From Prevotella sp. (GTDB lineage: Bacteria; Bacteroidota; Bacteroidia; Bacteroidales; Bacteroidaceae): a stretch of DNA of 64,000 bases. This document shows, piece by piece, positions 51,444 to 59,645 of the stretch (the first letter of the stretch is position 1; each line of letters starts with the position of its first letter). Below the pieces are notes generated by a model. That model saw only the letters and a list, made by a program, of their open reading frames with translations, was not told where the DNA came from and did no database searches. The translations under genes were made by a program, and so were the position numbers. The stretch is from the NCBI GenBank assembly GCA_017561825.1, contig JAFZBK010000067.1:62001-126000 (forward strand), written 5' to 3'.

Positions 51444-52327
51444 GTTATCATTGGTAAAGACAATTTATCCGTTTCTCCTTTATACATTCTGAGCAGCGAT
51501 GCTGTTGTAAGCGACAGTGCATTTTCCAAAGGTCGAGTCACCTTACCCATTTTTACATCTGAGAATAACACCCTTAATAGGACACCTTTAGCCTGGTTAT
51601 CAAGTTCACTGACAGCACTATCATAATATAGATGATAGACTAATTCATCCACAAACGGACGATAGGGTTCCATCACATCGTCAGCCAAAGGGAACGCATT
51701 ATACCGATTACGGTGAAATACGCCAAAGGCAGGATATAACCCAGAGCCTATCAATGCACGAGCCACAGCTGCACGCAGTATGGTGTACCCATAATTCAAC
51801 AGGTTGTTGGGGGACTGCCCCTCACGGTCTCTTTTGAATCCGTCATCAAAGATACGTCCCCAGTATTCCCTTGCAGCTGCACCTTCACGATTATCTGTAT
51901 CGCCAGACTTCACATTCATATAGTACTGCTTCAAGACATCCCCATTCTTGCCAACCTTATTTAATAATAATGCTTGATTTTTGATCTTACATTCTACCAG
52001 TTGTTTCCAGATATTCTTTTTCATGGGAGCCGAAGCATCAATCTGGTATTTATAGCTTTCCTGCTGAGTAGTATTACCATCCAACGTCATCAGCATAGTC
52101 TTAGGCATCTGTTTCTTGTCGCAGAAGACAACTGACACATTGTTTTCAGCAAGTTCGTTTAGTAAAGGTACTGATATGCTAACCTGCGGATTCTCAATTA
52201 CCACAAAACCAATATCCTCAATGGGCCTTATCACAGTATCCTTATTGTCCTTAAAGGTAATGACCATCTGCTGGTCTTTTAAGGATAAATATACGGGCGA
52301 AGAAAACATCAATGTTTGCTTTATCAT
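51440..52327 (-). CDS. cas1: CRISPR-associated endonuclease Cas1 (type II)
   Basis: At 295 residues, with IKQTLMFSSPVYLSLKDQQMV at the start. The catalytic metal ligands are the Glu in NREGAAAREYW, the His in FGVFHRNRYNAFPLADD and the acidic residue in DVMEPYRPFVDE. It is the integrase for new spacers. It overlaps both cas9 and cas2 by 4 bp, so all three are translated as one unit. Confidence 0.97.
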   Translation of the reverse strand: MIKQTLMFSSPVYLSLKDQQMVITFKDNKDTVIRPIEDIGFVVIENPQVSISVPLLNELAENNVSVVFCDKKQMPKTMLMTLDGNTTQQESYKYQIDASAPMKKNIWKQLVECKIKNQALLLNKVGKNGDVLKQYYMNVKSGDTDNREGAAAREYWGRIFDDGFKRDREGQSPNNLLNYGYTILRAAVARALIGSGLYPAFGVFHRNRYNAFPLADDVMEPYRPFVDELVYHLYYDSAVSELDNQAKGVLLRVLFSDVKMGKVTRPLENALSLTTASLLRMYKGETDKLSLPMIT

Positions 52328-55300
52328 ATCATCCTCCTTATCTCTCCTAAATCATTAATCTCAAAATCTACACCTTGGACAAGAGCTTTGAATTGAGTGT
52401 GAAGAAGCATTATACCTGGTCTGAAATCAGCATCGGCTTTAAATGCTCCATTAGTAATCTTAACATCCGAACTAGGTCGTGCATCTTGATGGTGTATCAT
52501 ATTTATTCTTCCATATGTATTTGATGATACGACCAAAATGGACATCCCCGTCACCTTATACAATCTCTTTAGAAGATTCTTTCTATCCAATTCCCAAACT
52601 TCTTCATGACTATTCTCATAAAGCAACACCATAGTACCAATCTTCAACTTATACCTAAGATCATAGCCGCTTTTACTATAAAGAGGAACTAGCTGGTTAT
52701 CCGTTGGTTTCTTGTCATTACTACGACGATAATAATTAGCCGCAGTAATGTTATTAAGCAGTTCAAACTCCCGTTTCTCTTTTCCCTTCTTATCGTGCCC
52801 GACATAAATTGCCATCATATAATTACGATCGTTCTGCACATGGTATTGACGTTTATAGTCATGTCTTGATTGGTCACGTTGCTGGCGAATATGGATGGGT
52901 CGGGTGACGGAACCGGTGAACACACGTACTTTCTTGATGGGAATCTGCTTATCTTCATTCATCCAAATTGTCTTTTCTAAAGCATTCTTCAATGAGCCAT
53001 GAAGCAGAATGGCATTCTCAACCTTTGAGCGCACCTCACCATCAACAATGTTCTTCACATCCTTCTCGTCTAATCCGTCAAGACTTTTGCGAACAACATA
53101 CTTAATATCCCCATCCACTTCTATAGCCCCATAATAAGTATCATTATGCAACGATGCTCTTGCAGTATCTCCTTGTGTCAAAACCTTTCCACCATGAGTA
53201 TCACGAACATATCGTTTGGCTTGCTTGGACATATTATCCTTTGAATAATGTGCTATCAATAATTCGTCTTGAATCTGCTTAATATCATTGACAAAGGTTG
53301 GCCAAGGTTTCTCAAAGACAGGTTTCTCTCCCCTATTATACTTGTATTCGTCAGACTGATGATAGAACTGGGCCAACTTATCATACGCAACTTTATCAAT
53401 ACAAGCTATCGTAATAGCATCAATGCAATGATGAACATGGTTCACACGCTCTTTCTTCGTATACTCTTCTTGGATACCCCACATCTTTCTGAAATCAGAA
53501 GTGGCAATACTCTTCACAATATACACATGCTTGAATACTGATTTTAGATATAGGCGGGCATAACGGGAAATAACGCTGATATCTGTACCTTGACGACGAG
53601 AAAATCCCTCAGGCACTTCCGTCATAGTAAATCTCTCATACTTACCACGCCAGTAATCCCGCTTTAAAGACAATAAATGGCGACGTCTAATCTTTGAATC
53701 TTTCTCTTCTTTGCTCGAAGCTCCTTTCGTACTTATCTTTCTTATCTGTCTTCCAAACTCTTCGTATCGTTCTTTCCATTCTGTAATTCTGTTAAGTATC
53801 TCATCGTGCTCAGCCAGTTGAGTAGGTATTTTTGTCTTTTTCACATCTCGATTATATCTACTACTACAAAGGGTTAGATTCATCTTCGTGCTATCACCTC
53901 CAGCACTGCGAGGAATAGTATGTTCAATGTCATATTTTGGATTATCACCTAAAAAATCTGTAATACGGATTTCTTCGCCAGTATAAAGGCATTTGTGATT
54001 TTGTTCTTCCCATAACTGGTATTTTAGAATATCCGAATCAGAAGGACTTTCAACATACTTTTCTATTTCCTTGCGACACTTTTCTCTATCTCTTTCATTT
54101 TCACGTTGCCATGTCTGAATGGCCCAGCGACGATTTGCATCGTTCAGGTCACGCGAGAACTCAATATGTATCTTTGTCTCTGGCGTAATAACCCCCTCTT
54201 TCAAAAGTCGATTTACCACTTTACGTAATCTGAACAATGAATGCATTGCCATCGGATTCTTGACACTGCTGATACGGGGCGACCCTAACTGGTATATCCC
54301 TTCATCATTAGGACGCTGGCGTGGATAAAGATCCATCATTGAGGGATGATACAATTTCTTCAGGTCTGCCTCATCCACATGATATTTATCCGTCAAGAAT
54401 CCTTTCACGCATTGTTCCAATGTCACTCCGTCTATATTGTTCTTGTCATAGGAGTGCATCACCTCTATCACATTTTCTATAGCGACATCCCGCACTTCCT
54501 TAATACCCCAAACATGCTGAGGAAGAACCTCAATAAGATTGGCAAGGAATACTGCCTCTGAATATATCAAACCATAATCACGCATATAGGGAAGAATCTT
54601 ACGAATGGCCTTTAGGCTGAGGGCGGCATAATCGTTAGGCATTGAAATCTTACTAAACTTCTCTGCTTGTTCATCATCCAATTGCAGACGGTTAATGGCG
54701 AACTCCTTCAACTTCTCATCATCATCATAGAAGAATAAAGCATGCCAAATGTCGTTCATGATTTGGAAACGTGTCTTGTCCTTAGCAAGTGTATATACCT
54801 CACATACACCAGCCAGCCAATCATCACCGAAAATATCTTCCAGTTGGGCATTTACAACAGACCCTGAAACCAGAGTATCCATCTGATAGTTGAACTTATA
54901 AGGCTTTTCTTCATTGCTCTTATAGTAACAGTAGTTATTCTTTCCTACCAGTTTCTTGGCAATGTCTTCAAATGGGAACGTCCGCTTTGACTTACGTTTG
55001 AACAGAGGAATAATCATTCCCTTCTCTTCGTTAGTCAGAGCTCTTTCAGCTTGTTCATACAGGGTATTGGTTTTTACCTTGATGTTATTGATGAAAGCAT
55101 ACATACGGAAGTCCTCATACAAAGGATGGGATGACGGACAACGAGGTTTGCCTTTCTCAAACGTACATATGCCGACCTGTCCTTTCTGTGATTTTAGCGG
55201 ACGTTGGTCGAAGATGGCTCGTTCTAAATCCTTTGTCAGTTTCTCGTCAAGTTCCTGCTTGGCACATATTGCATGAAACTCTTTCAGATAGTGCTCTTTA

Positions 55301-55935
55301 CGGGCAGTATAGTGGTTTCTTATCTTCTCACCCTTTTGATAGAGTTGATAGAAATATTCGCCGAGATATTCGCAACCTGCTTCTCTTATTTGTTCAGTCA
55401 GAGAAGAAATATCCTTCATCACTTCACCTTCTGACTCCTTTGTCGTTTCCTTACGATTGCTTAAAAATCCTCGCCTTTGGTTCAAATGGTACAATGCACG
55501 TCCCAATATATAACGTTGGGCTATATCTGTCAAGTCCAGTTTCTGCGTAAGACAGATGTGTCTGAACGTGTATGGATTGGTATTGGTCTTATCCTCAGTT
55601 CGTTGCCACTCCATAAACAACTCATTGTCGGGATATACCTTTTTCAGCCTCCATTCTCGAAGACTTGATTTTGGTAAAGGAGGACACAAATGGTTTTCGG
55701 TTAGTATTGTCAGTAGTCGTATTTTCCTTATCTTTCGCCGCCAGTAGTGTTTACGCACAGATCGATGTTCTGTCCGCTCTGCAGCTTTTGACGACTCGAT
55801 TCCCTTTTCAATTTTAACGCCTTCGGAGAATATGTTAGTACCCTTTGCTACAAGTTTGGTTCTCCCTTCTTCCTTATCTACTACAGCCCATCCAAGACTA
55901 TTTGTACCTGTGTCAATTCCAAGAATTCTTTCCAT
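52324..55935 (-). CDS. cas9: Cas9 nuclease, type II-C
   Basis: The 1203-residue product has RuvC-I Asp8 in GIDTGTNSLGWA, an Arg-rich bridge helix (AAERTEHRSVRKHYWRRKIRKIR), RuvC-II Glu592 in HIEFSRDLND, HNH His672 in DIEHTIPRSAGG, and RuvC-III His836/Asp839 in HHCIDAI, so all nuclease residues are present. The C-terminal 360 residues form the wedge and PAM-interacting region. The length is intermediate between compact II-C (about 1000-1100) and long Bacteroidetes Cas9s (about 1400-1500). No csn2 or cas4 is present, which defines II-C. The gene has a promoter at 55965-55995 overlapping that of the tracrRNA. Confidence 0.97.
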   Translation of the reverse strand: MERILGIDTGTNSLGWAVVDKEEGRTKLVAKGTNIFSEGVKIEKGIESSKAAERTEHRSVRKHYWRRKIRKIRLLTILTENHLCPPLPKSSLREWRLKKVYPDNELFMEWQRTEDKTNTNPYTFRHICLTQKLDLTDIAQRYILGRALYHLNQRRGFLSNRKETTKESEGEVMKDISSLTEQIREAGCEYLGEYFYQLYQKGEKIRNHYTARKEHYLKEFHAICAKQELDEKLTKDLERAIFDQRPLKSQKGQVGICTFEKGKPRCPSSHPLYEDFRMYAFINNIKVKTNTLYEQAERALTNEEKGMIIPLFKRKSKRTFPFEDIAKKLVGKNNYCYYKSNEEKPYKFNYQMDTLVSGSVVNAQLEDIFGDDWLAGVCEVYTLAKDKTRFQIMNDIWHALFFYDDDEKLKEFAINRLQLDDEQAEKFSKISMPNDYAALSLKAIRKILPYMRDYGLIYSEAVFLANLIEVLPQHVWGIKEVRDVAIENVIEVMHSYDKNNIDGVTLEQCVKGFLTDKYHVDEADLKKLYHPSMMDLYPRQRPNDEGIYQLGSPRISSVKNPMAMHSLFRLRKVVNRLLKEGVITPETKIHIEFSRDLNDANRRWAIQTWQRENERDREKCRKEIEKYVESPSDSDILKYQLWEEQNHKCLYTGEEIRITDFLGDNPKYDIEHTIPRSAGGDSTKMNLTLCSSRYNRDVKKTKIPTQLAEHDEILNRITEWKERYEEFGRQIRKISTKGASSKEEKDSKIRRRHLLSLKRDYWRGKYERFTMTEVPEGFSRRQGTDISVISRYARLYLKSVFKHVYIVKSIATSDFRKMWGIQEEYTKKERVNHVHHCIDAITIACIDKVAYDKLAQFYHQSDEYKYNRGEKPVFEKPWPTFVNDIKQIQDELLIAHYSKDNMSKQAKRYVRDTHGGKVLTQGDTARASLHNDTYYGAIEVDGDIKYVVRKSLDGLDEKDVKNIVDGEVRSKVENAILLHGSLKNALEKTIWMNEDKQIPIKKVRVFTGSVTRPIHIRQQRDQSRHDYKRQYHVQNDRNYMMAIYVGHDKKGKEKREFELLNNITAANYYRRSNDKKPTDNQLVPLYSKSGYDLRYKLKIGTMVLLYENSHEEVWELDRKNLLKRLYKVTGMSILVVSSNTYGRINMIHHQDARPSSDVKITNGAFKADADFRPGIMLLHTQFKALVQGVDFEINDLGEIRRMI

Positions 55936-56101: not shown

Positions 56102-56340
56102 CTTAATAAGACCTTAATAAGACAATGAATAGACATTATCCATAGCACATTGTTTATTGTTTATTTTATTGCTTGCAAATATACAGAACAATTATAATCA
56201 ATATTATGGAATAATCAGCGGGAGATTTTTGTGTTGAGGCAAAATAAAAGCCGCACTCCGAGCCACCACCAACCCCTCCAAAGGGAGGGAGAAAGAAGGC
56301 AAAAACGCACATGTTTCTGATACCTATGGTTTCGTGCTAC

Positions 56341-56450
56341 AAAAACATAGATATTGGAGCCTAAAAACATAGATATTGGAGCCTAAAAGCATAGGTATTG
56401 GGGCCTAAAAGCATAGGTATTGGAGCCTGAAAGCATAGATATCGAGATGC
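56341..56450. repeat. Five tandem 22-bp repeats
   Basis: Units at 56341, 56363, 56385, 56407 and 56429, each close to AAAARCATAGRTATTGGRGCCT. The first two are identical and the last is diverged. A weak sixth unit may precede them (56319-56340). No coding potential is seen. The surrounding gap 56102-57382 contains no credible gene. Confidence 0.85.
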
Positions 56451-56495
56451 AAAACCTAACAATCAAAATTTGAAAAAAAATTGTCGTTTCTGGAA

Positions 56496-57016
56496 TTTAC
56501 CTACATGTTTTACCTTATTTTACTATTACTCAGTGCGTTGCGAGAATTTCAAACTACATGGAAACTACATATAACTACATGCTACCTACATGTTTTGCCA
56601 CAAATTGCCCTATAAAACCATAGAAACTGTGGCACTAACAGGTAGAAAGTACGTCACTCTCTGACAGTCAGAACGTCACTCTTACATAAATTCTCTAGAG
56701 AATTTGTGCGCAAACAGCATGGTTACAAGTAGTAAGTGACGTAGTTGTTCATATATTCTCTAGAGAATTTGTGCGCAAGTAGCATGGTTACAAGTAGTAA
56801 GTGACGTAGTTATTCATAAATTCTCTAGAGAATTTCATAGCAAACGACTAAGATACTTATCGAGAACACCATGGTTCCTGTCGTTTATACCCATCATACC
56901 ATGTAGTTTGCATGTAGTTATATGTAGTTTCCATGTAGTTTGCATGTAGGTTAAATGGTTCACAATTCACTGTTTTACAGTTGGTTAAAACAAAACCATG
57001 TAGTTATGTAGGTAAA
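56496..57016. repeat. Nested inverted-repeat element with phased ATGTAG boxes and three palindromes
   Basis: The outer arms are TTTACCTACAT (56496-56506) and its complement (57006-57016). The inner arms are a perfect 32-bp inverted repeat at 56551-56582 and 56910-56941. The right arm has ATGTAG at 56901, 56912, 56922, 56933 and 56944 (10-11 bp apart); the left arm has the mirror CTACAT at 56554, 56565, 56575 and 56586. Between the arms, palindromes with core ATTCTCTAGAGAAT centre at 56696.5, 56761.5 and 56826.5, i.e. in 65-bp direct repeats. ACGTCACT lies left of centre and AGTGACGT right of it, twice each. No gene, transposase or known family is recognised. Confidence 0.85.
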
Positions 57017-57239
57017 AATCACAATCAAAGAAATAAAACGAGCTTTTTCTTTGTATGGTGCTCGTTTATTTGAACTTTGGCTTCGCCGCGTACCTTTGGC
57101 TTCACCGAACTTACTTCCGTTAACTATGTTTTCCTCTGTCACGACTCAGCCATTCAAGTATACTTGATGGCATTCGCTGCTCCATCGGTTCGGAAAAACC
57201 CAAATATATTTGGACCATTCGTCCTATTTTGCAGCATCC

Positions 57240-57361
57240 CAACAATGAAATACAAGCATTTCTTTGTATTCGCTGCTCCAAAATTTATCTGATTGATGAG
57301 TTTTGTCACGACTCAACAAATGAAATGCAAGCATTTCTTTGTATTCGCTGCTCCAAAATTT
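57240..57361. repeat. Two direct repeats upstream of relA
   Basis: Copies at about 57240-57286 and 57314-57361 share AATGAAATRCAAGCATTTC and TTTGTATTCGCTGCTCCAAA. A weaker third copy lies near 57130-57185 (CACGACTCA...ATTCGCTGCTCCA). The second copy supplies the -33 region of the relA promoter. Another possible promoter (TTTG 57069-57072, TACCTTTG 57091-57098) lies further upstream. Confidence 0.75.
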
Positions 57362-57390
57362 GGTTTTTCACTCACTAAATCGTAACTTTG
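57348..57390 (+). promoter_or_regulatory. Promoter of relA with upstream box
   Basis: TTTG (57359-57362), 20 bp, TAACTTTG (57383-57390). The box CTGCTCCAAAATTTGG (57348-57363) is shared with the uxaB promoter at the same spacing. The promoter lies inside the longer open frame starting at 57339, so the gene starts at 57411. Confidence 0.8.
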
Positions 57391-57410
57391 CAAGCAAAAC
57401 CAAAACCAGT

Positions 57411-59645
57411 ATGGATGAGAAACTGATTTTCACTGAAGAGGAAAGGACGGAGACACTGGCTCTGCTGCAGGAACTGTGCGCTATGCTCAACACCTCCCTC
57501 ATGGAAGGGGATGAGGAGAAGATTCATAGTGATTTGCTGAAAGCGATGAACAGTGACTGCATGCAACGCGATGTGTTCGGTTTGAACCCCATTCTGGAAA
57601 GTCTGCATACTGCCATCATCGCCGTTGAGGAAGAAGGACTGAAGCGCGATGGTGTGCTGGCCATCCTGCTCTATAACAGTGTGATCAACGGCGTGGATGA
57701 CCTTGCTCAAATCCAAGAGAGATATGGTGAGTCGGTAGGTGTGATCATCCACGGTCTGGTACGCATTCAGGAGCTCTACAAGAAGAACCCTGTTATTGAG
57801 AGCGAGAACTTCAGGAACCTCCTGCTGTCGTTTGCCGAGGACATGCGTGTGATCCTGATCATGATTGCCGACCGTGTGAACCTGCTACGTCAGATCCGTG
57901 ATACGAAGAACGAGGAGGCCAAACGACAGGTCAGCGAGGAGGCCAACTACCTGTATGCTCCCCTCGCCCACAAGTTAGGTCTGTACAAGCTGAAAAGCGA
58001 ACTGGAGGATCTCTCCCTGAAATACTTGGAGCATGATGCCTATTACCTGATCAAGGAGAAGCTGAATGCCACAAAGAAGAGTCGTGACGCCTACATCGAG
58101 AAGTTCATCAAACCTATCGATGAGAAGCTCCGCGAGGCCGGTCTGACGTATCACATGAAGGGTCGTACGAAGAGTATCCACAGCATCTGGCAGAAGATGA
58201 AGAAGCAGAAATGCGGTTTTGAGGGTATCTACGACCTGTTCGCCATCAGGATCATTCTGGAGCCACCCGTTACTGATCATCCCACACGAACACAGGAGGT
58301 GTCGATGTGCTGGCAGGTCTTCGCCATCATCACCAATATGTACCAGGGTAACCCGAAGCGGTTGCGCGACTGGCTTACCGTGCCCAAGAGCAATGGCTAT
58401 GAGAGTCTGCATATCACCGTACTCGGTCCTGAGAACAAATGGGTGGAGGTGCAGATCCGTACGCAGCGCATGGACGAGGTGGCCGAACGCGGTCTGGCTG
58501 CCCACTGGCGCTATAAAGGCGTGAAAAGCGAGGAAGGGGGTCTTGACGACTGGCTGAACAGTATCCGCTCCGCCTTGGAGAACAACGAGAACTCGTTGCA
58601 GATGATTGATGAGTTCAAGATGGATCTGTATGAGGACGAAGTGTATGTGTTCACCCCCAAGGGCGATCTCTTTAAGTTCCCCAAGGGAGCCACGGTACTC
58701 GACTTTGCCTACCATATCCACTCACGGGTGGGTAACCAGTGTACCGGTGCCCGCATAAATAATAAGGTAGTGACGTTCCGCCATCAACTGCAGTCGGGCG
58801 ACCAAGTGGAGGTGATGACATCCAGTAACCAGACACCCAAGCAGGACTGGCTCAATGTGGTGAAGACCAGCAGGGCGAAATCGAAGATCCGTCTTGCCCT
58901 GAAAGATATCCAGGTGAAGCAGGGAGCCATGGCGAAGGAGATGCTGGAACGGCGACTGAAGAACAGGAAGATTGAGATCGAAGAGAGCGTAATCAATCAC
59001 CTGATTAAGAAGTTGGGTATCAAGGAGACACGCGAATTCTATAAACAACTGGCTGAAGGTACGCTCGACATGAATACCGTCATCGAGCGGTACGTGGAAG
59101 TACAGCAGCATGACAATGGTACGACTCCTACCCTGCCCGTGCAGAGTGCCGATGAGTTCGTGTATGAGCATCCTGATGAAGAGATGACCTACGGCAGTGA
59201 TGACGTGATCATCATTGACAAGAATCTGAAGGGTGTTGACTTTCAGTTAGCCAAGTGCTGTCATCCCATCTATGGCGATAATGTCTTCGGCTTTGTCACC
59301 ATCAACGGAGGTATCAAGATCCACCGCATCGACTGTCCTAACGCCCCCGAGCTGCGCAAACGGTTCGGCTACCGTATTGTGAGGGCCAAATGGAGCGGTA
59401 AAGGACAGGTGCAGTACTCCACCACCCTGCGCATTATCGGTAACGATGATATCGGTATTGTGAACAATATCACCAGCATCATCTCCAAAGAGGAGAAGAT
59501 CGTGATGAGGAGTATCAACATCGACAGTCATGACGGATTGTTCAGTGGTAACCTCGTCGTGAATATCGAAGATACCAGTAAGCTGGATGCCCTGATCAAG
59601 AAGCTCAGGACAGTGAAGGGTGTGAAGCAGGTGGTGAGACTATAA
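57411..59645 (+). CDS. relA: RelA/SpoT-type (p)ppGpp synthetase with degenerate hydrolase site
   Basis: The product has 744 residues from MDEKLIFTEEERTE. The N-terminal HD domain has lost its metal motifs: HD is YN at 88-89 and ED is IN at 92-93 (LLYNSVING). The synthetase domain has GRTKSIHSIWQKM, YDLFAIRIIL and GYESLHITVLGP. TGS (DEVYVFTPKGDLFKFPKGATVLDFAYHIHS), the zinc-finger-like region (AKCCHPIYGD) and an ACT domain (GNDDIGIVNNITSIIS) follow. It should make (p)ppGpp in response to starvation and not degrade it. A second, hydrolase-active RSH is expected elsewhere. Confidence 0.93.
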   Translation: MDEKLIFTEEERTETLALLQELCAMLNTSLMEGDEEKIHSDLLKAMNSDCMQRDVFGLNPILESLHTAIIAVEEEGLKRDGVLAILLYNSVINGVDDLAQIQERYGESVGVIIHGLVRIQELYKKNPVIESENFRNLLLSFAEDMRVILIMIADRVNLLRQIRDTKNEEAKRQVSEEANYLYAPLAHKLGLYKLKSELEDLSLKYLEHDAYYLIKEKLNATKKSRDAYIEKFIKPIDEKLREAGLTYHMKGRTKSIHSIWQKMKKQKCGFEGIYDLFAIRIILEPPVTDHPTRTQEVSMCWQVFAIITNMYQGNPKRLRDWLTVPKSNGYESLHITVLGPENKWVEVQIRTQRMDEVAERGLAAHWRYKGVKSEEGGLDDWLNSIRSALENNENSLQMIDEFKMDLYEDEVYVFTPKGDLFKFPKGATVLDFAYHIHSRVGNQCTGARINNKVVTFRHQLQSGDQVEVMTSSNQTPKQDWLNVVKTSRAKSKIRLALKDIQVKQGAMAKEMLERRLKNRKIEIEESVINHLIKKLGIKETREFYKQLAEGTLDMNTVIERYVEVQQHDNGTTPTLPVQSADEFVYEHPDEEMTYGSDDVIIIDKNLKGVDFQLAKCCHPIYGDNVFGFVTINGGIKIHRIDCPNAPELRKRFGYRIVRAKWSGKGQVQYSTTLRIIGNDDIGIVNNITSIISKEEKIVMRSINIDSHDGLFSGNLVVNIEDTSKLDALIKKLRTVKGVKQVVRL

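Follow-up and report, generated by a model that had tools for sequence, protein, structure and literature searches.

A symmetric noncoding element in Prevotella and its relatives upstream of PrimPol-VapE primase-helicase genes

A symmetric noncoding element lies between a Cas9 gene on the minus strand (52324..55935) and a RelA/SpoT gene on the plus strand (57339..59645, listed from TTG, with an ATG at about 57412) in a 64-kb stretch of Prevotella DNA, here called the window. The two genes are given for context only. What is the element, and what could it do? A first-pass annotation made from the sequence alone knew of no family with such a plan. The possibilities it raised were a site of partition or replication, a large operator, a source of structured RNA and a MITE-like element.

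Architecture of the element

The symmetric dyad is real, and all of the sequence features described in the annotation were found in their places. The outer 11-bp inverted repeat (56496-56506 and 57006-57016) is exact. The inner inverted repeat is perfect, as described, but it is a 33-mer (56550-56582 and 56910-56942) and not 32 bp long. It sits within a pair of 48-nt segments that are 92% complementary. The inner left arm carries four CTACAT boxes spaced 11, 10 and 11 bp apart (56554..56591, plus strand). Five ATGTAG boxes, spaced 11, 10, 11 and 11 bp apart, form the inner right arm (56901..56949, minus strand), which is inverted relative to the left arm. Chains of at least three identical 6-mers at 10-12 bp spacing are absent from the rest of the window, and none was found in three mononucleotide shuffles of it.

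The core contains 22-bp-like units with ACGTCACT at 56651 and 56673 (56625..56690, plus strand) and three 65-bp direct repeats (56685..56879, plus strand). The direct repeats start at 56685, 56750 and 56815, and the second and third are 94% and 63% identical to the first. They contain three ATTCTCTAGAGAAT palindromes located 65 bp apart (56690..56703, 56755..56768 and 56820..56833) and AGTGACGT at 56735 and 56800. The direct repeats, the palindromes and the mirrored boxes ACGTCACT and AGTGACGT of the annotation are all confirmed. No ATTCTC-NN-GAGAAT site other than these three palindromes occurs in the 64 kb. Their number is peculiar to the window copy: ten other aligned places of the same family lack one 65-bp unit, and palindrome 2 is located within the unit that is in excess in the window copy only.

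AT-rich gaps separate the outer boxes from the inner ones. The left gap (56508..56549) is 68% AT, compared to 53% for the window, and is the part that diverges most between copies. The right gap (56951..56995) is 73% AT. The outer left box TTTACCTACATG (56496..56507, plus strand) is half of the 11-bp outer inverted repeat and is found in nearly all two-ended copies. The outer right boxes CCATGTAGTTATGTAGGTAAA occupy 56996..57016 (minus strand). In most aligned copies conserved sequence continues past the 11-bp repeat, for about 30 bp on the left (AATTTTGAAAAAAATTGTCGTTTCTGGAA type, 56466..56495, plus strand; absent or different in the copies on contigs C61 and C48) and about 12 bp on the right (AATCACTCT type in several copies, 57017..57028, plus strand). 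This indicates that the element extends beyond the 11-bp repeat.

A dispersed family and its linked gene

A copy count, proposed in the annotation, revealed that the element is not unique. Its own genome (2.98 Mb in 69 contigs, 88% complete) contains 11 places of the window family, on contigs C23 (the window), C31, C41, C45, C32, C20, C48, C61, C1, C35 and C59. The copies on C1, C35 and C59 are truncated by contig ends. Seven two-ended, gene-less copies are 87-94% identical to each other (21 pairs). Random drift in the repeats, which the annotation regarded as the sign of a sequence without function, is not what these copies display: the boxes are almost invariant while the spacers drift. Only one of 72 box sites varies between copies (71 are invariant; diversity 0.003). 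The diversity is 0.026 in the palindromes, 0.10 in the core and 0.20-0.23 in the gaps. The conservation of boxes and palindromes relative to the rest of the element was matched in 0 of 9999 permutations.

Many copies are located in intergenic regions between divergent genes, as in the window. The orphan copies retain the full two-armed plan, including the outer boxes, and no common theme is found among their neighbors. A blastn search with the element found no match in phage or plasmid collections. A search of 39 other genomes, of which 23 belong to the genus, gave partial matches in three, all from the genus. The exact core 24-mer has no match in genome_contigs.

The copies at C48:10294-10754 and C59:17566-17839 (L018 and L015) have more than 80 bp of right flank in common, and both adjoin a HigBA-like toxin-antitoxin pair (HTH_3; Gp49 in C59). 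A larger unit therefore seems to have been duplicated.

The C61 copy, whose left outer end is unlike those of the other copies, is located immediately upstream of a PrimPol+VapE (BT4734-like_N/VapE) primase-helicase gene. An HU-HIG gene is located on its other side. The primase-helicase gene is the only PF08800 gene detected in this 88% complete assembly. Its product contains PF08800 and PF05272, with a PrimPol match at 4.4e-30 and a VapE helicase domain, and also matches phage DNA helicase/primase families. Profile matches relate its N-terminal domain to CRISPR-associated PrimPols. The only solved sequence relative of the protein is the VapE-like chain 7pds_A, which we take to be a SaPI replication protein.

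Elements upstream of related genes

The link to the primase-helicase was tested independently upstream of related genes. Scanning genome_contigs with the protein encoded next to the C61 copy yielded 67 loci, mostly in MAGs of rumen Prevotellaceae. One of them (L186) has no upstream DNA and was left out. Inverted phased boxes with a score of at least 4 are found in 55 of the 66 upstream regions (at least 5 in 49, at least 6 in 42). At a score of at least 4, they are found in 0 of 1320 dinucleotide shuffles and in 0 of 83 other noncoding segments from the same loci (29.6 kb). In the 55 loci the plan is one of inverted arms whose boxes follow each other at about 11 bp, with locus-specific letters. 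The 11 regions below the box score include two with less than 500 bp, plus L147 with 436 bp. A 22-bp periodicity of at least 0.68 is present in 41 of the 66 upstream regions, 20 of the 1320 shuffles and none of the 83 control segments. At least one ATTCTC-NN-GAGAAT-type palindrome is present in 44 upstream regions and in none of the controls. By position, 35 loci have two palindromes and nine have one. The two palindromes are 65 bp apart in 34 of the 35 loci and 66 bp apart in L149. That no family with this plan was known holds for the literature searched, in which no title among the open papers found describes such elements beside BT4734/VapE genes. It does not hold for genomes, in which the plan stands upstream of these 55 of 66 related genes.

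The geometry of arms and gaps was analyzed in 49 loci (17 of the 66 were left out). Of 254 steps between boxes, 237 measure 11 bp. Both sides carry an outer box in 31 loci, and the left side does in 38, where about one is expected by shuffling. The AT content is 0.74 in the stretches just outside the inner arms and 0.61 in the core, and is higher in the former in 48 of the 49 loci. The numbers of boxes in the two arms are unequal in 34. The long complementary arms would fit the structured RNA of the annotation, with the dyad transcribed and acting as a long hairpin. However, we consider this very improbable because of the unequal box numbers and because an Rfam covariance-model search of the window returned two tRNAs only and no family over the element.

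The nearest relatives of the gene within the genus (for example L048, L049, L065, L066 and L067) also have symmetric elements upstream, with other boxes. In Bacteroides and Parabacteroides records (L120, L121 and L122), 22-bp palindrome arrays were recognized, partly by eye, upstream of BT4734/BF3469-family genes. With distant PF08800 genes (29 loci, L072 left out), the association is weak or absent. The 22-bp periodicity beats all 200 shuffles, made by a simple block shuffle, in eight of the 29, and strong box arms are found in three. The upstream regions in L064 and L073 have a strong 21-bp periodicity instead of a 22-bp one. In L119 (4815-4902, a plasmid of Bacteroides sp. CACC 737), only a 42-nt hairpin is found, between a small ORF next to the HU gene and the BT4734/BF3469 gene.

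An HU-like ORF adjoins 30 of the 66 genes, upstream and divergent in 25 and downstream in five. Among 54 loci (the other 12 have short flanks and were left out), the palindrome is present in all 25 with HU and in 12 of the 29 without it (Fisher p ~1e-6). The presence of the same palindrome in the promoter of the HU gene was considered and rejected (0 of 25 HU genes of the test set). By eye, a palindrome was seen near the HU gene in L049, and a degenerate form of it in L046.

The element in L046 is located between divergent HU and primase-helicase genes, as it is in 25 of the 30 loci with an HU-like ORF, and many window-family copies, the window copy included, also lie between divergent genes. 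Such positions are compatible with the large operator of the annotation. The boxes and palindromes would let the primase-helicase or its HU partner repress its own gene, and the scattered copies would be a regulon or titration sites. An autoregulatory site would yield the same static pattern. However, the orphan copies keep the complete two-armed plan and the outer boxes, which is beyond the needs of an operator, and their neighbors are of no common kind. The box-framed AT-rich gaps, seen in 48 of the 49 loci, also argue against an operator, and we regard it as unlikely.

Gene-less copies are not restricted to the genome of the window. Cognate copies without a gene, resembling the element beside the resident gene, are found in genomes G007 (C15), G018 (C167), Prevotella sp. 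ne3005 (G040; C19 and C6) and Prevotella sp. tc2-28 (G041; C26 and C25). No second copy was found in G020. Genome G018 has about 40 further places with nothing but the core 22-bp repeats in common; in the ones inspected (L078, L080, L083 and L084), the inverted arms consist of other direct repeats (CTTCCAC, GGTCACAC, GGGGAGGAT and GTAACCGAT). A tblastn search with two primase-helicases covered 30 loci, including the window and loci without the gene; its only hits were L216 and L218, both of which carry genes of this kind. The window element is almost certainly an orphan copy of this primase-helicase-linked family.

In several pairs of loci (L124/L132, L154/L155 and L159/L182), homology extends from the element to the stop codon of the gene, and the flanks differ. 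In several others (L161/L188, L179/L181 and L148/L171), the flanks are shared too. This indicates vertical inheritance as well as displacement.

The MITE-like element of the annotation would be non-autonomous and belong to an ordinary transposon whose transposase is not seen here, and its link to the primase-helicase would be an old capture. With a length of about 0.5 kb, no gene, an 11-bp terminal inverted repeat and 11 dispersed places, the element does resemble a MITE. In addition, a 9-bp repeat ACAATCAAA flanks the window copy. It is the one candidate target-site duplication among eight two-ended copies, whose true edges are uncertain. The other seven have no consistent duplication, and transposition with target duplication was not favored. 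Among the ORFs within about 4 kb of the 66 loci, no recurrent integrase, transposase or other recombinase was found. The plan is kept upstream of one gene type across species while the box letters change, which also argues against a MITE. A parent transposon with the same ends was not found in the genome (88% complete); the linked gene encodes a primase-helicase and is located outside the ends. We consider an ordinary MITE unlikely. The annotation was nonetheless close with both its replication site and its MITE-like element: the element is dispersed and gene-less, but the linked gene is not that of a transposase and the duplications are inconsistent.

Box-protein co-variation and a candidate replication origin

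The box types across loci include CCTACAT, CGACATA, TGACATA, ACATACAC, CTACTTT, CCTCCACT and others. Box letters co-vary with residues 33-140 in the N-terminal part of the protein, as shown by computation on 61 loci (12 of 73 loci have no scorable box and were left out). The distance between boxes tracks the distance between proteins, with a Mantel r of 0.53 (0 of 999 permutations, which ignore the tree). Residues 33-140 contribute beyond the rest of the protein, with a partial r of 0.46 (0/999), or 0.45 within clades (0/999); the GAC-box proteins are one group, and shared ancestry is not fully removed from these tests. For the C-terminal residues 700-740 the partial r is 0.22 (1/999), or 0.18 within clades (13/999). 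The helicase part has a negative partial correlation with the boxes. At residues 33-140, four-fold sites give a partial r of only 0.10, and those in the next two stretches give 0.15 and 0.20. Linkage to the nearby element is therefore not a sufficient cause. It was rejected as the cause of the N-terminal co-variation, since the silent sites there correlate no more than those in the next stretches.

The fast diversification of box letters between loci, together with an N-terminal domain related to CRISPR-associated PrimPols, might indicate a role in defense. The boxes would imitate phage or satellite origins or titrate them, and an arms race would drive box diversity. However, phage and plasmid collections contain no similar DNA by blastn, and the boxes fit the resident protein and not a phage. 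A defense or decoy role is thus improbable.

We favor the element being an iteron-type recognition site of the PrimPol+VapE module, probably a replication origin, and assign this a probability of about 60%, reasoning by analogy with SaPI Rep. Initiators of SaPI-type iteron origins are VapE/SF3-like helicases, some of them fused to a primase, and the domains of the protein here agree with this. By the same analogy, the boxes would correspond to iterons and the AT-rich gaps to unwinding sites. The primase-helicase may bind to one face of the helix at the boxes in both mirrored arms and open the AT-rich gap between the outer and inner boxes. It would then unwind and prime outward, and the element would act as a replication origin. 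The HU-like partner probably acts at the 65-bp-spaced palindromes.

According to the accessible text of the source (PMC7581432), SaPI Rep helicases recognize iterons adjoining their own genes, and SaPI5 Rep contains primase and helicase domains. The SaPI origin with Rep/PriRep and SCCmec Cch2 with its putative origin are similar to the arrangement here, with iterons beside the gene for a self-loading helicase (PMC7581432). As in SaPI5, helicase and primase are fused, here as PrimPol+VapE (PMC7581432). Judging from the same text, AT-rich stretches adjoining the iterons are a further SaPI-like trait, and cognate recognition between protein and repeats may be another, indicated here by sequence co-variation only. 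Unlike SaPI origins, which are downstream of the gene, the repeats here are upstream. They are arranged as two mirrored arms that enclose a palindrome core, and the box letters are locus-specific, which differs from SaPIs as described in that text. Also unlike SaPIs, which are islands with an integrase and genes for phage interaction, the 66 loci have no recurrent integrase within about 4 kb, and copies lacking the gene are dispersed along the chromosome.

These gene-less copies suggest that replication-origin-like repeats have spread without their gene. It is less likely, but conceivable, that the origin itself is the mobile unit, a two-armed iteron origin that would be copied and inserted anew although it has neither a transposase nor an integrase. 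Chromosomes might then be sprinkled with orphan origins, and the box code might co-evolve with the N-terminal domain of the primase-helicase, which is equally tentative. The most tentative part of our favored reading concerns the orphan copies. The single resident gene may act on them in trans, and they may have arisen when the origin over-replicated and the extra copies were inserted by host recombination or by a borrowed recombinase.

An unexplained dyad can now be treated as a protein-DNA code open to testing, with dozens of natural box variants and their cognate primase-helicases. The BT4734/VapE genes, which are abundant in Bacteroidales, would also gain a function. Should the element be an origin, these chromosomes would contain many additional origins, which might be conditional. 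Should it move, a mobile element would have a primase-helicase as its only linked enzyme, and we know of no described transposition mechanism of this kind.

A gene with flanking cis-elements and many gene-less copies elsewhere in the genome is also the arrangement of REP/RAYT. REP units are moved by a Y1 transposase and take the form of short single-strand hairpins, whereas the family here has double-strand box arrays and a primase-helicase. The BrickBuilt and 464/PgRS MITEs of Porphyromonas gingivalis, another member of Bacteroidales, are likewise dispersed and intergenic, with an internal tandem repeat of 23 or 41 nt, according to the accessible text (PMC4596501). The periods here are 22 and 65, and the ends are of TTTACCTACAT type instead of their IS5-like terminal repeats (GAGACC...). 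Neither phased inverted box arms nor a primase-helicase partner is described for them in that text (PMC4596501). By profile, the partner protein is of the kind of the Bacteroidetes PrimPol (VirE_N)-VirE helicases and the class B CRISPR-associated PrimPols, as classified in the accessible text of PMC8211822; related PrimPol-VirE fusions are treated in PMC5862659. The accessible parts of these two papers describe no cis-element or dispersed copies.

The window element abuts a separate dispersed family, which consists of a tandem array of AAAAACATAGATATTGGAGCCT type with 22-bp spacing (56341-56450) and a leader (array and leader, 56316..56471, plus strand). The array and leader have 12 matches in the same genome. 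This genome also contains elements with the same plan and other boxes, located via weak matches to the window element. They are of the TTAGTAGGGGA type (L019, L020 and L021) and the ACATACAC type (L022; also on C44, C43, C24 and C15). On C44, C43, C24 and C15, a window-type leader precedes ACATACAC-box elements instead, and copy C20 has a leader similar to that of an ACATACAC element on C62. Leaders and box modules are thus exchanged. In the ACATACAC-box element of L022 (850-1260, on C62), the gap region too forms a long inverted repeat that is nearly perfect, which is not the case in the window family.
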